Positions 43,645 through 49,412 of a DNA stretch of 64,000 nucleotides are shown one piece after another. The notes under the pieces were generated by a model, which had not been told where the DNA came from, searched no databases, and saw only the letters and a program-made list of their open reading frames with translations. Source of the stretch: Prochlorococcus marinus XMU1408 (GTDB lineage Bacteria > Cyanobacteriota > Cyanobacteriia > PCC-6307 > Cyanobiaceae); contig NZ_QJUE01000002.1 in the NCBI RefSeq assembly GCF_003208055.1, positions 682,001 through 746,000 of the forward strand, read 5' to 3'. Made by a program: the position numbers and the translations under genes. How positions within the stretch are numbered: position 1 is the first letter of the stretch; each line of letters opens with the position of its first letter.

Positions 43645-44247
43645 TCATCGGGTTAATGCTAATGCCCAATTTGGGGAGGAGGAACTGACACCTAAAATAT
43701 TCTTTATCGAAGAAGAATTGCATTTAGCTACAATTCCGTTAGTAGGGAAATTTGAAAACAATTCCCTATTTATCCATTGAGAATGCCACCTTTTGACTTG
43801 TTTAGGATCATCAGTTCTTAGTGTAATAGGAACCTCAAATCCCCAATTCTGAAGTTGAGTCAAATCTGACAACTCATCACCATCGGAACAAAATATCTGC
43901 AAAGCTAAAAATAAAAGTTGATGCTGAGTATCATGCGTCTGATTTGAATTCGATAGCAATTGCTCTCGTAAATATTTGGAATTAGAAGTTGGAGAATATA
44001 AAATCCCCTCTAGCTCTACTTCAACTTTTAAAGAATCATCAATAGTCAATGGAATAGTATTGATAGTCCTTATATTTTCGATAATTTCTGTATTCTCGCG
44101 TGAATATGCATCTACTAATTGCCCATATTTATATCTCAAAGCTATTGCACACCCTTCAATTTTTGGTTGAACAACCATAGTTGTACCCTCTGGAAGTTTT
44201 GACCACCAGTTTGAAAAACAATCCTTATCGAGTCCGAGTAATCTCAT
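43645..44247 (-). CDS. LigA adenylation-domain-like protein, stand-alone (paralog A)
   Basis: A 200-residue protein resembling the nucleotidyltransferase domain of NAD+-dependent DNA ligase. The motif I region is QPKIEGCAIALRY (residues 27-39), with the lysine that is adenylated in ligases. IIENIRTINTIPL, then LEGILYSP at the motif III position (the usual RGE glutamate replaced), NWGFEVP near 127, and FPTNGIVAKCNS near 164 (motif IV D to N, Lys kept). The NMN-binding Ia, OB, zinc, HhH and BRCT domains are all missing. A paralog lies at 48726-49412. Confidence 0.75.
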   Translation of the reverse strand: MRLLGLDKDCFSNWWSKLPEGTTMVVQPKIEGCAIALRYKYGQLVDAYSRENTEIIENIRTINTIPLTIDDSLKVEVELEGILYSPTSNSKYLREQLLSNSNQTHDTQHQLLFLALQIFCSDGDELSDLTQLQNWGFEVPITLRTDDPKQVKRWHSQWINRELFSNFPTNGIVAKCNSSSIKNILGVSSSSPNWALALTR

Positions 44248-44626
44248 ATGTATATCATTACGAACAGGAAGAGCTAAGTAGCTTCAATAACTTTTTTTCT
44301 TAAGGAATCAAAAACAAATAAAAAATTAGAGAAGCAATTGATTAAAGAAAAACTAGGAAAATCAATTTTACTTCTGACAGTTTTAAGGAATTTTAAAAGA
44401 AAAATTCAATTTAAAAATAATAAATTCGGTTAGTATTATGAGAAAGGTTCATGAGTTATGTACTAACACTAATATTTATATATGTAAAATTAGTTAATAT
44501 CTAAAGTTTTACGATATTTTATTGAGAATATCAGTCACTAAATAAGTCGTTATTCACAAGATCCAGTATTTATTCTCATGTCTACAACGATTAGATATAA
44601 TAGTTTATGTAGGCATTAGGGATTAT
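44248..44626. other. Intergenic region without recognised gene
   Basis: About 380 bases of AT-rich DNA separating divergent genes. It should contain the promoters of the LigA-like gene and of the tandem pair at 44627. No ORF or strong hairpin is evident. Confidence 0.4.
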
Positions 44627-44878
44627 ATGACAATACTAGAGAAATATCCTGAAGATATTCCATGGGATTTGAATATAAACCATAGTAACTACAAAACGAT
44701 TCGATGGATGCTAACAAAATCAGATAACGTTTATACATTTACTAGAAGTCGTTTAAACGATAAATATGTATATATCCAAAAGAATGATGGAAAAAGGGAG
44801 GCCTTTAAAGAATATGAAGCAAGATTTACATATCAAAGATTGTTTGACGAAGGATATTCTTTAGCCGCCGTTTCCTGA
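44627..44878 (+). CDS. Hypothetical protein, tandem paralog 1 (PWDL type)
   Basis: An 83-residue soluble protein. It begins EKYPEDIPWDLN, has two strands (TIRWMLT, KYVYIQKNDGK), and ends EYEARFTYQRLFDEGYSL. The next gene shares EKYPE-x-x-PWDL, the strand pair and the A-R-[FL]-T-Y-Q-x-L ending, so these two arose by tandem duplication. Function unknown. Confidence 0.7.
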   Translation: MTILEKYPEDIPWDLNINHSNYKTIRWMLTKSDNVYTFTRSRLNDKYVYIQKNDGKREAFKEYEARFTYQRLFDEGYSLAAVS

Positions 44879-44943
44879 TTAAAGAATAATTCTTGACGTT
44901 GAAGATCATAAGTGTAGGCTAAAGATATAGTCACTTTCAATAC

Positions 44944-45198
44944 ATGCCAAGGGTTAAAAGAGAGAAGTATCCAGAGAAGGCTCCATGGGATTTAGGACCA
45001 TTATCCGAACATAAATCTCTAGATTGTTGGAGACTGGTAAGAGGATCTGAAATTGTTATCTTTGCGAGAAAAGGTGAAGACAACCACTATTTCATTATGC
45101 AAAGAGACGATAAAGAGCCAATTGAGATTCTTGCATTTCAAGCAAGACTCACATACCAACAACTATTAGATAAAGGATTCAAACTTGAAGTTTCATAA
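44944..45198 (+). CDS. Hypothetical protein, tandem paralog 2 (PWDL type)
   Basis: An 84-residue soluble protein beginning with a basic leader (MPRVKR) then EKYPEKAPWDLG, with CWRLVRGSEIVIFAR, HYFIMQRDDKEP and FQARLTYQQLLDKGFKL. It is a diverged copy of the gene 65 bases upstream. Between the copies the central strands have changed but the PWDL start and the Y-Q-x-L end are retained, suggesting those are functional. Confidence 0.7.
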   Translation: MPRVKREKYPEKAPWDLGPLSEHKSLDCWRLVRGSEIVIFARKGEDNHYFIMQRDDKEPIEILAFQARLTYQQLLDKGFKLEVS

Positions 45199-45234
45199 AT
45201 ATTTTAAAAATAATTCAGTTCTTATAAAAATATT

Positions 45235-45456
45235 ATGACTGAATTAGAAGAACTAGAAGACATAGTTGGTTCTTTAGAAAAGATAGAACCATTTGGCATA
45301 GAACCTGATTTCAGCTCACTGGGTTTAGAACCAGCAGATGTCTTAGGATTTAAAACAGAAGATGAGCTGGAACAAGCTATTGAACTTCTCACAATAGAAC
45401 TAAATCAGAGTCAATTTTGCTCTATAGATTCAAACAACCAAAAGAAGGCAGCATAA
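45235..45456 (+). CDS. Hypothetical small acidic protein
   Basis: A 73-residue strongly acidic protein (MTELEELEDIVGSLEKIEPFGIEPDFSSLGLEP), with a C-terminal helix and one cysteine. It follows the tandem pair by 36 bases in the same direction. No family recognised. Confidence 0.6.
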   Translation: MTELEELEDIVGSLEKIEPFGIEPDFSSLGLEPADVLGFKTEDELEQAIELLTIELNQSQFCSIDSNNQKKAA

Positions 45457-45534
45457 TTTATTTAATATTATTTACTCAAAACTATGGTTTAAAAAAAAAC
45501 TTATACTAAATATTAATAACAGGTTTATAACATT

Positions 45535-45723
45535 CTAAGGCTCTACCTTCTCTACAAATCCGGGTTCTGGATTAATCACCGGCTCGGACCAAATAGTCCA
45601 TAAGAAAAGAATCGTTAAAGGACAAAACATCATACCAAACAAGGGTGATAGATATTTAATCCATTGAATTTTTGTCGGAATCACTAATAAAAACAATTGA
45701 ATTTTAAATTCGATAATTAACAA
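45535..45723 (-). CDS. Small single-span membrane protein
   Basis: A 62-residue protein with a hydrophobic segment (YLSPLFGMMFCPLTILFLWTIW) and a polar C-terminal tail with proline-rich VINPEPGFVEKVEP. Its N-terminal 20 residues are also hydrophobic and may not be real coding sequence. No family recognised. Confidence 0.45.
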   Translation of the reverse strand: MLIIEFKIQLFLLVIPTKIQWIKYLSPLFGMMFCPLTILFLWTIWSEPVINPEPGFVEKVEP

Positions 45724-45856
45724 GATGTTAATTAAGAATTTATAAATTATTCACAACTGATGGTAAATAATTTATAAATTCAAGTTTAGTAAAAAATGCT
45801 GATTGTAAAACTGTATATATTAATACATAATTATCATTCTTGATCAAGGACTACTT

Positions 45857-46015
45857 ATGAATAAAATTGAAGACCTTAAAGAAGAGGAAAAAAGGGACGC
45901 AATCGACACGTACTTCGAATGTGTTACTGCTTGCTCATTAGATGAAGAGACAATTGAATGTACAACAAAATGTGTTGAGGTTCATTTAAAAGGTGAAGAT
46001 GTAAAAGTAATCTAA
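45857..46015 (+). CDS. Small twin CX3C protein
   Basis: A 52-residue acidic protein with two CX3C motifs, C-V-T-A-C and C-T-T-K-C, separated by 8 residues (ECVTACSLDEETIECTTKC). Twin CX3C arrays bind metal or form two disulfides, as in small Tim chaperones, though the spacing here is shorter and no relation is implied. It is one of the few tiny ORFs here with a clear structural signature. Confidence 0.65.
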   Translation: MNKIEDLKEEEKRDAIDTYFECVTACSLDEETIECTTKCVEVHLKGEDVKVI

Positions 46016-46131
46016 TTTTGATTTTTTTGTAGCTTTATAAAACATTGCTTGCATAAAATTAAACCTTTTCTCCTCCAGTATGATTCAAAAAAACTTTGTT
46101 TACATAGTTGACAATTAAATGTAGTTTGCAT
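46012..46131 (-). CDS. Very small zinc-ribbon-like protein
   Basis: A 39-residue protein on the opposite strand: CQLC near residue 7 and CKQC near 27 form a classic four-cysteine zinc ribbon or treble-clef set. It overlaps the last 4 bases of the twin CX3C gene. Such mini zinc proteins occur in cyanobacteria; a nucleic-acid role is possible but unproven. Confidence 0.6.
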   Translation of the reverse strand: MQTTFNCQLCKQSFFESYWRRKGLILCKQCFIKLQKNQN

Positions 46132-46153
46132 TGTCGATATTTATCAACTAATT

Positions 46154-46264
46154 TTAAGCCCAGTCAGTATCTTCTAGAAGACATGAATATTCTGAGATGT
46201 CAAAAAAAGTGTCTTCATTAAGAAGATCGTCTACTTCTGCGCGAAGCCAATAACTTAAAGCCAT
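46154..46264 (-). CDS. Very small acidic peptide
   Basis: A 36-residue ORF, MALSYWLRAEVDDLLNEDTF then ISEYSCLLEDTDWA. It lies at the downstream end of the HLIP cluster, 17 bases beyond the last hli stop in the same direction, so it may be co-transcribed. No motif recognised. Confidence 0.45.
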   Translation of the reverse strand: MALSYWLRAEVDDLLNEDTFFDISEYSCLLEDTDWA

Positions 46265-46281
46265 TTGATTAAAAAATTGTT

Positions 46282-46401
46282 TTAAATAAAGCCAGGAATA
46301 ATCCAGCCAGTAAATCCATAGTTAATAACAGCAGCTAATAAACCCATCATCGCGAGACGACCGTTCATCAATTCAGCTGTCTTCCAGTAATTGTTTTCCA
46401 T
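46282..46401 (-). CDS. hli: High-light-inducible protein (HLIP), cluster gene 6
   Basis: A 39-residue HLIP. The chlorophyll-binding motif is in AELMNGRLAMMGLL (E-x-x-N-G-R-x-A-M-x-G), followed by a hydrophobic span ending in the family's GWIIPGF. HLIPs are one-helix relatives of plant light-harvesting proteins that bind chlorophyll and carotenoid and protect photosystems. It is the last of six consecutive minus-strand hli genes. Confidence 0.88.
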   Translation of the reverse strand: MENNYWKTAELMNGRLAMMGLLAAVINYGFTGWIIPGFI

Positions 46402-46547
46402 CAAACAAATCCTGGAATAATTTGACCGGTAGTAAAATACGCGCCCATGAGAGCTGTGCATCCGAATAATGCTGCGTATCCATTCAACTTTTCAGCGATG
46501 ACTTTTTCCGGGTCTATTTTTTGTAAGTTGATAATCTCATTTGTCAT
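46401..46547 (-). CDS. hli: High-light-inducible protein (HLIP), cluster gene 5
   Basis: A 48-residue HLIP starting MTNEIINLQKIDPEK. The motif is AEKLNGYAALFGC, with the usual NGR arginine replaced by tyrosine, and the end TTGQIIPGFV is typical. A longer reading frame upstream is the antisense shadow of the previous gene. Its stop overlaps the next hli start. Confidence 0.85.
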   Translation of the reverse strand: MTNEIINLQKIDPEKVIAEKLNGYAALFGCTALMGAYFTTGQIIPGFV

Positions 46548-46693
46548 TAGACAATTCCAGGAATGATCTGACCTGTTGTTAGGTAAGCACCTATCAAGGC
46601 CCAGCATCCAATAAATGCTGCATATCCGTTGAGTCTTTCAGCAATAATTTTGCCTTCTTCAACTCTTACTGCTTGCTTAGTTTGTTTTTTCAT
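46547..46693 (-). CDS. hli: High-light-inducible protein (HLIP), cluster gene 4
   Basis: A 48-residue HLIP. It begins MKKQTKQAVRVEEGK, has the motif AERLNGYAAFIGC (again NGY in place of NGR) and ends TTGQIIPGIV. It is similar to the next gene in the cluster (46401-46547), probably by tandem duplication. Confidence 0.85.
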   Translation of the reverse strand: MKKQTKQAVRVEEGKIIAERLNGYAAFIGCWALIGAYLTTGQIIPGIV

Positions 46694-46812
46694 TAAACGA
46701 CACCAGGAATAAGTTGACCAGTAGTTAGATAGATACCTGTTAGAAGAACGAAAGCCATCATGGCAGGTCTGCCAATGCTTCGTTCTAATATTGTTTTGTT
46801 AGATGGTTGCAT
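46693..46812 (-). CDS. hli: High-light-inducible protein (HLIP), cluster gene 3
   Basis: A 39-residue HLIP variant: LERSIGRPAMMAFVLL gives E-x-x-x-G-R-x-A-M, with the Asn that helps bind chlorophyll replaced by Ile. The end TTGQLIPGVV is canonical. Loss of the Asn could change chlorophyll binding. Confidence 0.8.
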   Translation of the reverse strand: MQPSNKTILERSIGRPAMMAFVLLTGIYLTTGQLIPGVV

Positions 46813-46823
46813 GGTTAAGTTAT

Positions 46824-47027
46824 TTAGAAAATTCCAGGAATGATTTGACCGGTTGAGACGTATGCGCCTAAAAGGCTAATCATGCCAACCATGGCCCATC
46901 GACCATTTGTCTTTTCGGCTTCCTTGGGGTAATTGGTATAGTTCTCTACCAATTGAGGTGGAGTTTCGCGAGCAAATATATTTTGCTTGCCATACTCTGT
47001 AATTACTTGAGATGTAGAAGAGGACAT
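46824..47027 (-). CDS. hli: High-light-inducible protein (HLIP), cluster gene 2
   Basis: A 67-residue HLIP starting MSSSTSQVITEYGKQN. After a polar extension, AEKTNGRWAMVGMISLL carries the full motif and TGQIIPGIF ends it. A nearly identical design appears at 56436-56732, so the two are paralogs. Start set at the ATG at 47027, within the longer open frame. Confidence 0.87.
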   Translation of the reverse strand: MSSSTSQVITEYGKQNIFARETPPQLVENYTNYPKEAEKTNGRWAMVGMISLLGAYVSTGQIIPGIF

Positions 47028-47038
47028 TGCTGAAAAAC

Positions 47039-47146
47039 TTAAAAAATGCCAGGAATGATTTGACCTGTTGTCGCATACGCACCGAAGGCTGCAACAAAGC
47101 CAAGCATCGCTGCCCATCCGTTAAACTTTTCTGCTTCAGGAGTCAT
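47039..47146 (-). CDS. hli: High-light-inducible protein (HLIP), cluster gene 1
   Basis: A 35-residue minimal HLIP: MTPEAEKFNGWAAMLGFVAAF with the chlorophyll motif E-x-x-N-G-W, and TTGQIIPGIF at the end. Its counterpart is at 56741-56848. It is the first gene of the six-gene cluster, with candidate RpaB sites just upstream. Confidence 0.87.
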   Translation of the reverse strand: MTPEAEKFNGWAAMLGFVAAFGAYATTGQIIPGIF

Positions 47147-47160
47147 AATAAAAAAATATT

Positions 47161-47199
47161 TATGTAAATAAATGTAACACTATTGTTAACCAATGTAAA
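47161..47199 (-). promoter_or_regulatory. Candidate HLR1 (RpaB-binding) sites before the six-gene hli cluster
   Basis: On the minus strand, upstream of the hli start at 47146, GTTACATTTATTTACATA (47161-47178) fits the HLR1 consensus (G/T)TTACA(T/A)(T/A)NN(G/T)TTACA(T/A)(T/A) at every position. A second near-match, TTTACATTGGTTAACAAT, lies at 47182-47199. HLR1 is bound by RpaB and controls high-light genes in other cyanobacteria. Confidence 0.6.
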
Positions 47200-47385
47200 G
47201 GTCGATCTGTACGGCTTGCCTCATCAATCGATCATTCAGAATCAAATAATACAAAAAGGCTTTTAATTGCAAAGAGTTATAGCTCAAGAAAACAATGTAT
47301 AGAGCTTTAAGAACTAAATATAAAAAAACATTAGAATAAAAAAGGTGTGACACCTATTTATAATTTTCTCTTGGTAGCTTCGATT

Positions 47386-47673
47386 TTATTTGTAAAAGAA
47401 TTCTATTTCTTTCGGTCTTAATCCATCCCAACCAGCATTAAGTAAACGTGTATTGAGAGTTTCTTGATCTAAATGTTTAGACCCGGTTTTAACAATTCGG
47501 TTACGCATCGATTTCTTAACTCCAGTCCTTTTTCGTGCATTTTCTTTATCCATTACTTCTTTATAAAGAAATAGCATTTCTGAAGGGATTGGACTTCCGT
47601 CAAGATCAAAACCAGCTTCAATAGCCTTATCAATTGCATCAGGGCCAGAAAAATCCACATTAAATATGAGCAC
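47386..47673 (-). CDS. Hypothetical soluble protein
   Basis: A 95-residue soluble protein: an N-terminal strand (MLIFNVDFSGPDAIDKAIEAGFDLDG), a helix, a basic stretch (ARKRTGVKKSMRNRIVKTGSK) and a C-terminal helix ending RPKEIEFFYK. It appears to be a picocyanobacterial family but I cannot name it. Confidence 0.65.
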   Translation of the reverse strand: MLIFNVDFSGPDAIDKAIEAGFDLDGSPIPSEMLFLYKEVMDKENARKRTGVKKSMRNRIVKTGSKHLDQETLNTRLLNAGWDGLRPKEIEFFYK

Positions 47674-47742
47674 TATATCTATTGTCCTATCTAATCAGCT
47701 CTATATTGAAATTTGAAGTCAAAAATAATGAAAGAGAGTCTT

Positions 47743-48375
47743 TTACTTTAAGCGAAATATCACAGAAACATTATTAGCTGGCATCTCAATTATTTTATCT
47801 AGTTCAAATCCATTCTCAGAGGCAATATTATTAACTCTGCTTAAAGGACGAATTCCCCAAAGTGGGTTTTGCATTTTTAATGATTGGTCAAAATTCAAAT
47901 TACTCAGTGAAGTCTTTATACCCTTAATAAAAAATGGTCCATATAGAATCAAGAAATTATTTTTTTGCATATAATTTTTTGATTCCTCAAACAAAGCTTT
48001 CGTACAACTCCAAGGTGAAATATGAATCATGTTAATGCAAACAATTCCTTTTATTAAATCCCTGAGTTTATTCGTAATTGGCCAAGGTCTTTTTTCAACA
48101 TCAATGTCCAATGGTTTTGGCATCTTTAAGGAAAGACCGTAATGATCAATCCAAGAAACAATGCTTTTACGATGTATTAATTCAGGATCACTAGTCTGCC
48201 AAATAATGGAAGGAAATGACTTTTGAAAAAACACACCATGTTCCCCACTTCCACTTGCAATTTCCAGAATCAATCCATTATCAGGAATGTAATTACTCAG
48301 TACACTCAAAATATATTCACGGTTCCTTAATGTTGCAGGAAAATTGAGTCGATCATCAAAACTTACAGGTTTCAT
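47743..48375 (-). CDS. DUF938 family methyltransferase-like protein
   Basis: A 210-residue class I methyltransferase of the DUF938 type. SAM motif I is LILEIASGSGEHGVFF (about residues 35-50), DPEL follows, and an INMIHISPW block near 114 is the DUF938 hallmark. The protein is soluble. Its acceptor is unknown. It begins 4 bases after the end of the zinc-ribbon membrane gene upstream and shares its transcript. Confidence 0.85.
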   Translation of the reverse strand: MKPVSFDDRLNFPATLRNREYILSVLSNYIPDNGLILEIASGSGEHGVFFQKSFPSIIWQTSDPELIHRKSIVSWIDHYGLSLKMPKPLDIDVEKRPWPITNKLRDLIKGIVCINMIHISPWSCTKALFEESKNYMQKNNFLILYGPFFIKGIKTSLSNLNFDQSLKMQNPLWGIRPLSRVNNIASENGFELDKIIEMPANNVSVIFRLK

Positions 48376-48378
48376 TAA

Positions 48379-48639
48379 TTACTTAAAACTCAAGCGAACT
48401 AAAGGTTCAGAATTAGTGGGAAACTCATCAGTATTAATTTCTTCAATAACAAAAAGAATCATTATTAGTAGAGGAGCCAGAAAAGCTGATGCAGCAACTA
48501 GACCAAAAATTTTTTTTGAATTTATTAATGGACTTTTTATCAACGGTTCGTCGCATTGACCACATATCAAAACACCGTCACGCCTAGTCTTTGTAAGTTG
48601 ATAACGAGAAGAGCAGAAAGGACAATAATATCTACTCAT
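48379..48639 (-). CDS. Zinc-ribbon membrane protein
   Basis: An 86-residue protein. Residues 6-29 hold CPFC and CGQC, a four-cysteine zinc ribbon, and residues 47-66 a hydrophobic span (FGLVAASAFLAPLLIMILFV). Such ribbon-plus-span proteins are widespread in cyanobacteria. It directly precedes the DUF938 gene, separated by 3 bases. Confidence 0.75.
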   Translation of the reverse strand: MSRYYCPFCSSRYQLTKTRRDGVLICGQCDEPLIKSPLINSKKIFGLVAASAFLAPLLIMILFVIEEINTDEFPTNSEPLVRLSFK

Positions 48640-48725
48640 TCTTGAATTGAGAAATAAAATTTGTATATTCTTATTAAGGCTACCATTAAAGAAAGTTTAT
48701 TAGATCGAATGTGTAAGCACAAATC

Positions 48726-49412
48726 ATGAATAAGAATAAAGGAAAATTTGATCACCTAATAAAGAATCTTGAAAGGATCTCATCTCAAAATTCGATATTT
48801 AATTACAAATCTGGACAAAGAGCATTTTTATCATTAGGAAAAGGAAATCTTCGAGAATGGTTAGATAAACTTCTTCCAAACACTAGACTAATTTTAGAGC
48901 CCAAAATCATTGGATTAAGTATTGGTATTCAATATATCGATGGATACATAAATAAAGCTATAAATAAAAGAAGTGAAGACATAACAGAAAAGGTTATGAC
49001 ACTAGAGAGTGTTCCTAAAAACATCGCAATAAAAAAAAGGTTAGAACTAAGAGGAGTTCTATACGAGCCTGAGAATTCATCTAATAAAAACAAAAAGATG
49101 GGCAACAAGTGGCTTCATCAATCACTAGCTATGAAAAAAGCACTTAACTTCTGTGCTTTTCAAATATTTCATTGCAATATTAATCACTTCCAAGCTCTTC
49201 AAGAATTAAAAAACCTTAATTTTGAAGTTCCACATACACAATTTACTAACTACATTTCAGATATTGAAATTTTTCGTCAATGCTGGAAGGATGGCAAAAT
49301 ATTTAAAAGCTATCCAACCAACGGAATTGTATTGAAAATAAATTCAAGAAAATTGCAAAAGAGGCTTGGAGAAAATAATCTGTCATCACATTGGGCATAT
49401 GCCATAAACTAA
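48726..49412 (+). CDS. LigA adenylation-domain-like protein, stand-alone (paralog B)
   Basis: A 228-residue protein related to the gene at 43645-44247. FLSLGKGNLREWLDKL corresponds to the M-L-S-L motif that precedes motif I in LigA. Motif I is EPKIIGLSIGIQY, where the Lys is kept but the acidic residue (KxDG) is Ile. LELRGVLYEP is motif III without its Glu; NFEVP and YPTNGIVLKINS follow, with motif IV D changed to N and Lys kept; the end is GENNLSSHWAYAI, as in LigA. All other ligase domains are absent. Confidence 0.75.
   Translation: MNKNKGKFDHLIKNLERISSQNSIFNYKSGQRAFLSLGKGNLREWLDKLLPNTRLILEPKIIGLSIGIQYIDGYINKAINKRSEDITEKVMTLESVPKNIAIKKRLELRGVLYEPENSSNKNKKMGNKWLHQSLAMKKALNFCAFQIFHCNINHFQALQELKNLNFEVPHTQFTNYISDIEIFRQCWKDGKIFKSYPTNGIVLKINSRKLQKRLGENNLSSHWAYAIN

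Follow-up and report, generated by a model that had tools for sequence, protein, structure and literature searches.

In a 64,000-nucleotide stretch of the 1.8-Mb genome of Prochlorococcus marinus XMU1408 (contig NZ_QJUE01000002.1, positions 682001-746000; hereafter the window), two short genes, P0001 and P0002, encode stand-alone nucleotidyltransferase domains of the type found in LigA, the DNA ligase dependent on nicotinamide adenine dinucleotide (NAD+). The two proteins are probably independently domesticated and catalytically inactivated descendants of mini-LigA, a family of short LigA-like proteins carried by marine phages and by tRNA-integrating, satellite-like elements. An NAD+ ligase is as a rule an essential housekeeping enzyme built of several domains; in the present case, the catalytic domain moves by itself, and it has been fixed and apparently disabled twice in an abundant marine photosynthesiser.

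Domain identity, catalytic motifs and selection

Both proteins match Pfam DNA_ligase_aden (PF01653) above the curated cut-off, with E values of 1.6e-20 for P0001 and 5.8e-17 for P0002, and the best PDB sequence matches of both are DNA ligases throughout. They are 31% identical to each other across 199 amino acids, and neither contains an Ia, OB, Zn, HhH or BRCT domain. The AlphaFold2 model of P0001 has a predicted local distance difference test score of 89.3, and that of the intact relative P0003, encoded at locus L077, has a score of 90.4; in Foldseek and VIA-align comparisons, both models fall on LigA nucleotidyltransferase domains. The P0001 model superimposes on the NAD-bound LigA of M. 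tuberculosis (7k72) with a VIA Z of 23.8 and a root-mean-square deviation of 2.0 over 199 residues, and the nucleotidyltransferase fold is intact in this overlay, which an earlier note on this DNA had suggested as a check. Because the model begins at approximately LigA residue 74-87, Ia is entirely missing from P0001.

The earlier note, which had placed both open reading frames (ORFs) correctly without stating that P0001 lies on the minus strand, would have been undermined by a lack of ligase matches or by evidence that the proteins were pieces of complete ligases. Ligase matches are present, and the proteins are not fragments. Chance ORFs and an origin by assembly or frameshift errors in LigA are excluded by the 27 orthologous ORFs that each gene has in one genus (the window gene and 26 others), by the bias of substitutions towards third codon positions, and by a separate LigA encoded elsewhere in the same genome in a frame of 692 amino acids.

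The catalytic motifs are listed in Table 1. The earlier reading of a motif I lysine in PKIEG and PKIIG, of a motif III without its glutamate (ELEGIL and ELRGVL), of a PTNGIV-x-K segment with asparagine for the motif IV aspartate and with the motif V lysine kept, and of missing Ia and DNA-binding domains agrees with the present results. Its N-[WF]-x-F-E-V-P motif is found in P0001 (N-W-G-FEVP) and not in P0002 (N-L-N-FEVP), and the motif I lysine, invariant in the scored P0001 orthologs, falls short of full conservation in those of P0002. The glutamate of motif III and the aspartate of motif IV are required for LigA chemistry. Of the features of a functional LigA, both proteins retain the PF01653 domain with its motif I lysine and lack Ia, these two acidic residues, and the OB and C-terminal DNA-binding domains. 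Because Ia, the motif III glutamate, the motif IV aspartate and the segment contacting the nick are gone from both, adenylylation by P0001 or P0002 appears unlikely. A non-ligase function, as the earlier note proposed, is probable, and its suggestion of RNA or protein adenylylation finds no support in proteins with these losses; such activity may belong to the catalytically intact members of the family.

Table 1. Positions and conservation of the two LigA-type proteins, their motifs and a neighbouring gene in the window
Feature	Position	Strand	Evidence or conservation
P0001, 200-aa stand-alone LigA-type nucleotidyltransferase pseudo-domain, without Ia	43645..44247	(-)	Pfam, PDB sequence matches, AlphaFold2, VIA-align, 27 orthologs
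P0001 motif I, QPKIEG, Lys29	44152..44169	(-)	Lys in all 26 orthologs scored there
P0001 motif III, VEIRGELY of intact sisters changed to VELEG[IV]LY	43999..44022	(-)	ELEG[IV]L in 27/27 orthologs
P0001 motifs IV-V, PTNGIVAK, Asn170 replaces Asp, Lys175 retained	43723..43746	(-)	Both invariant, 27/27
P0002, 228-aa stand-alone LigA-type nucleotidyltransferase pseudo-domain, short N-terminus without Ia signature	48726..49412	(+)	Pfam, PDB matches, 27 orthologs
P0002 motif I, EPKIIG, Lys60, KxDG Asp changed to Ile62	48897..48914	(+)	Lys 25/27, Ile62 25/27
P0002 motif III, ELRGVL, catalytic Glu changed to Val111	49044..49061	(+)	Val/Ile 26/27
P0002 motifs IV-V, PTNGIVLK, Asn199 and Lys204	49314..49337	(+)	Lys204 27/27; position 199 N 18, S 5, others 4
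S-adenosylmethionine (SAM)-methyltransferase-like neighbour of P0002	47743..48375	(-)	Label from its own sequence

P0001 is under purifying selection and behaves as a conserved protein. Among its 27 orthologs, the median ratio of nonsynonymous to synonymous substitution rates (dN/dS) is 0.128, 62% of the substitutions are in third positions, and Lys29, Arg50, Glu78, Glu80, Asn170, Lys175 and Trp194 are invariant. P0002 looks more relaxed, with a dN/dS of 0.369 over its 27 orthologs, a raised value for which its lower dS accounts in part. Given the purifying selection on P0001 and the invariance of Lys29, Arg50, Asn170 and Lys175, its role is probably one of binding without catalysis, most likely as a nucleotide-, nick- or protein-binding factor. 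Our best guess, which we regard as doubtful, is that it modulates incoming elements in a dominant-negative manner.

The same conserved residues could instead belong to an active adenylyltransferase with a re-engineered site, in which the glutamate two residues upstream in LEG[IV] and Asn170 in motif IV would take part and the target would be RNA, protein or another nucleotide. The seven invariant residues, a dN/dS of 0.13 and the intact nucleotidyltransferase fold are what would be expected in such a case. However, the loss of Ia should make NAD+ unusable, the acidic residues of motifs III and IV are lost, and the position of the KxDG aspartate varies among the P0001 orthologs (D in 15, E in 8, A in 2 and V in 2), so that an active P0001 is unlikely.

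Conversely, the two genes might be functionless, decaying remains of old mobile-element insertions. Some genomes of the genus have no match (many of these genomes are incomplete), stops occur in a few P0001-type matches, selection on P0002 is relaxed (0.37) and 2 of its 27 orthologs have lost the lysine of motif I, and a P0002-like gene is broken in another genome, G118. Nevertheless, the reading frames are uninterrupted in the vast majority of orthologs, their positions are syntenic throughout the genus, and ratios of 0.13 and 0.37 compare with 0-0.33 for neighbouring genes at the same loci; decay of both genes is thus an improbable explanation.

The mini-LigA family and convergent motif loss

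Relatives were searched for in 200 genomes of the order, 390 genomes of the class and viral contigs. Single-protein queries gave no match in the viral contigs, and an alignment-based scan gave 24 loci, comprising 22 complete stand-alone ORFs of 241-289 amino acids, one stand-alone ORF that is cut off (L194) and one full ligase of 677 amino acids (L196). The seven annotated phage matches inspected from the P0001 and P0002 searches are full LigAs. Cellular stand-alone members occur in Prochlorococcus groups g1 and g2 and in genome G118 (group g22), and in the Synechococcus-like genomes G022 and G198; a scan of named genomes added one member on a contig of a Luminiphilus metagenome-assembled genome. 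G198 carries four copies (loci including L083, L084 and L099), and a small helix-turn-helix-like protein is encoded directly upstream of two of them. Elsewhere in Cyanobacteriia, no stand-alone copy is present among the matches listed, whose frames of 668-728 amino acids are full LigAs. No match to the anti-phage defence families of PADLOC was obtained, and literature searches did not find a description of a stand-alone mini-LigA family.

Outside the P0001 and P0002 groups, nearly all members have the motifs PK-[IFL]-DG, RGE and DG and the motif V lysine, together with a segment like NPRNxxAGxLR of LigA and an Ia-like YRxGxxxxSDxxFDxL. In the viral members, RGE is replaced by HGE, NGE or TGE; the Synechococcus-like members, like a few of the viral ones, have glutamine or arginine in place of the motif V lysine. 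In a sample of ten intact members, the motif I lysine and aspartate, the motif III glutamate, the motif IV aspartate, the motif V lysine and the Ia-like tyrosine and two aspartates are invariant.

Group g2 (e.g. G122, G129 and G007), which we take to be the high-light Prochlorococcus, retains intact copies of mini-LigA. Copy A is intact and conserved, with a dN/dS of 0.16; copy B often has TNG, yet it retains RGE. With the LigA of the window genome as the query, full LigA was found in 3 of 87 g2 genomes that are ≥90% complete, and 84 gave no match. ATP-dependent ligase matches are present in 12 of the 13 g2 genomes checked, and the exception, G197, has LigA. A high-light lineage without full LigA but with intact mini-LigA sharpens the question of what mini-LigA does.

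In the phylogeny, mini-LigA forms one clade against the full LigAs (support 100/99, and 100/100 in a second tree). P0001 and P0002 belong to it as short stand-alone ORFs apart from full LigA, and as degenerate branches they lack the full catalytic set and the Ia-like segment of intact members. Intact recombinase-linked copies form the sister group of the P0001 clade (98/91), and P0002 lies in the other half of the tree with the intact G118 and high-light copies. Constraining P0001 and P0002 into a single clade costs 59.9 log-likelihood units and is rejected by the approximately unbiased test (p-AU 6.6e-5). Because the two proteins fall beside different intact branches and their joint clade is rejected, the losses in motifs III and IV are convergent. 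The descent from one ancestor proposed in the earlier note holds at the level of a common family origin, and the inheritance of the shared changes from one altered ancestor is rejected by the same test.

Mobile elements around the relatives and the origin of the window copies

Many of the intact mini-LigA copies neighbour a recombinase gene. At five loci (L077, L080, L093, L098 and L104) they follow the recombinase gene with a 4-nucleotide overlap (ATGA), and three others (L075, L076 and L084) are arranged head-to-head with a recombinase at a distance of 46-151 bp. The recombinases are assigned as tyrosine recombinases by phrog_1 (E 8e-16 to 3e-10), with Pfam integrase matches slightly under the cut-off and with L075 assigned by homology only. 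Several mini-LigA copies adjoin tRNA-Pro or its fragments or halves. The element at L077 (G085:C1:1190001-1203000) is satellite-like, with the recombinase, mini-LigA, an HK97-type capsid/protease fusion and VapE; it further encodes an Mrr-ParA-like fusion and a DUF4214 cadherin-like protein. The viral neighbourhoods are of a replication type and include VapE, a helicase, a primase zinc ribbon, a PD-(D/E)XK nuclease and RusA. In G118, an intact copy is located near a homolog of the methyltransferase neighbour of P0002, and a 108-amino-acid remnant of a recombinase C-terminus is found 386 bp upstream of this copy.

These associations are consistent with the following course of events. Mini-LigA appears to be a stand-alone adenylation protein of the NAD+-ligase type, composed of a compact Ia-like segment and a nucleotidyltransferase domain without an OB fold, and in several elements it is probably co-translated with the overlapping tyrosine recombinase. 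The intact protein probably forms enzyme-AMP using NAD+ and probably aids nick processing in integration, excision or replication. Two copies would then have become fixed in this Prochlorococcus genus, which we take to be low-light clade I, and lost Ia and the acidic residues that contact the metal and ribose; judging from these losses, P0001 and P0002 would no longer be able to react with NAD+. P0001 still has the fold and the two lysines of the pocket, and this remodelled pocket is invariant. Should intact mini-LigA load AMP onto itself from NAD+, marine mobile elements would possess an accessory of integration or replication that has gone unrecognised. A further-reaching view seems rather unlikely: mini-LigA would be a new recombinase-coupled class of NAD+-dependent adenylyltransferases serving marine phages and satellites, and P0001 would be a copy that the host has domesticated and rewired, either for a new activity or for a role against the elements.

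Several observations weigh against the domestication of two inactivated copies from mobile elements. The window itself holds neither a tRNA nor a recombinase remnant, and because element parts are absent there, we infer the mobile origin of its two copies from their relatives. The synteny between P0002 and the G118 copy is loose, with extra genes intervening, and the broken, degenerate P0002-like gene (L082, G118:C1:147000-159000) lies elsewhere in G118. Deep nodes among the viral and cellular branches have moderate support (80-92), and the exact deep branching order is unsure in a tree with long branches. In addition, the retained Lys29, Arg50 and Lys175 may allow P0001 some nucleotide chemistry.

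Two further features of the window adjoin P0001. Tandem paralogs of 83-84 amino acids, conserved in the genus, are located beside it at 44627-45198. Directly upstream, a conserved stretch at 44248-44350 precedes the start codon and contains in-frame stops in most genomes; this stretch may be a leader or a remnant of Ia.

Comparison with known ligases and genomic islands

LigA itself (PF01653; E. coli 2owo and M. tuberculosis 7k72) shares with P0001 and P0002 the nucleotidyltransferase fold (VIA Z of ~23), the order of motifs, and the lysines of motifs I and V; it differs in the OB, Zn, HhH, BRCT and Ia domains and the two acidic residues that the window proteins lack.

The nearest precedent for mini-LigA is the split NAD+ ligase of the T5 type (phrog_3359; heterodimer of phage PR1, 9hu3/9i5i), in which the adenylation part is likewise a separate short protein of a mobile genome. 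P0001 and P0002 might accordingly be halves of a split ligase, each equivalent to subunit A and paired with a separate OB-domain subunit: the PR1 heterodimer structures match the fold (Z of ~19), and in T5-like phages the genes for subunit A (323 amino acids) and subunit B (256 amino acids) are close together. However, the intact family stops at the nucleotidyltransferase boundary, the window proteins lack the catalytic residues, and in the host genomes and viral records searched, the PF03120 OB domain was found only in full LigA frames, where a divergent OB domain would be missed and the records may be fragments. This pairing is very improbable.

In comparison with tycheposons and phage satellites, which are reportedly tRNA-adjacent islands of picocyanobacteria carrying a tyrosine recombinase, the mini-LigA elements have the same arrangement and some add VapE and capsid genes, whereas the window genes sit outside any recognisable element. 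The ATP-dependent ligases of Prochlorococcus (Pmar-Lig, 6rar; PMC6698739) share the superfamily fold (VIA Z of ~15.7) and the genus name; they belong to another family (PF01068) and are complete enzymes having DNA-binding and OB domains. In both kinds of ligase, the catalytic core consists of the nucleotidyltransferase and OB domains (PMC12133292), and since that core includes OB, a protein made of the nucleotidyltransferase domain only falls outside the ligase classes described there.

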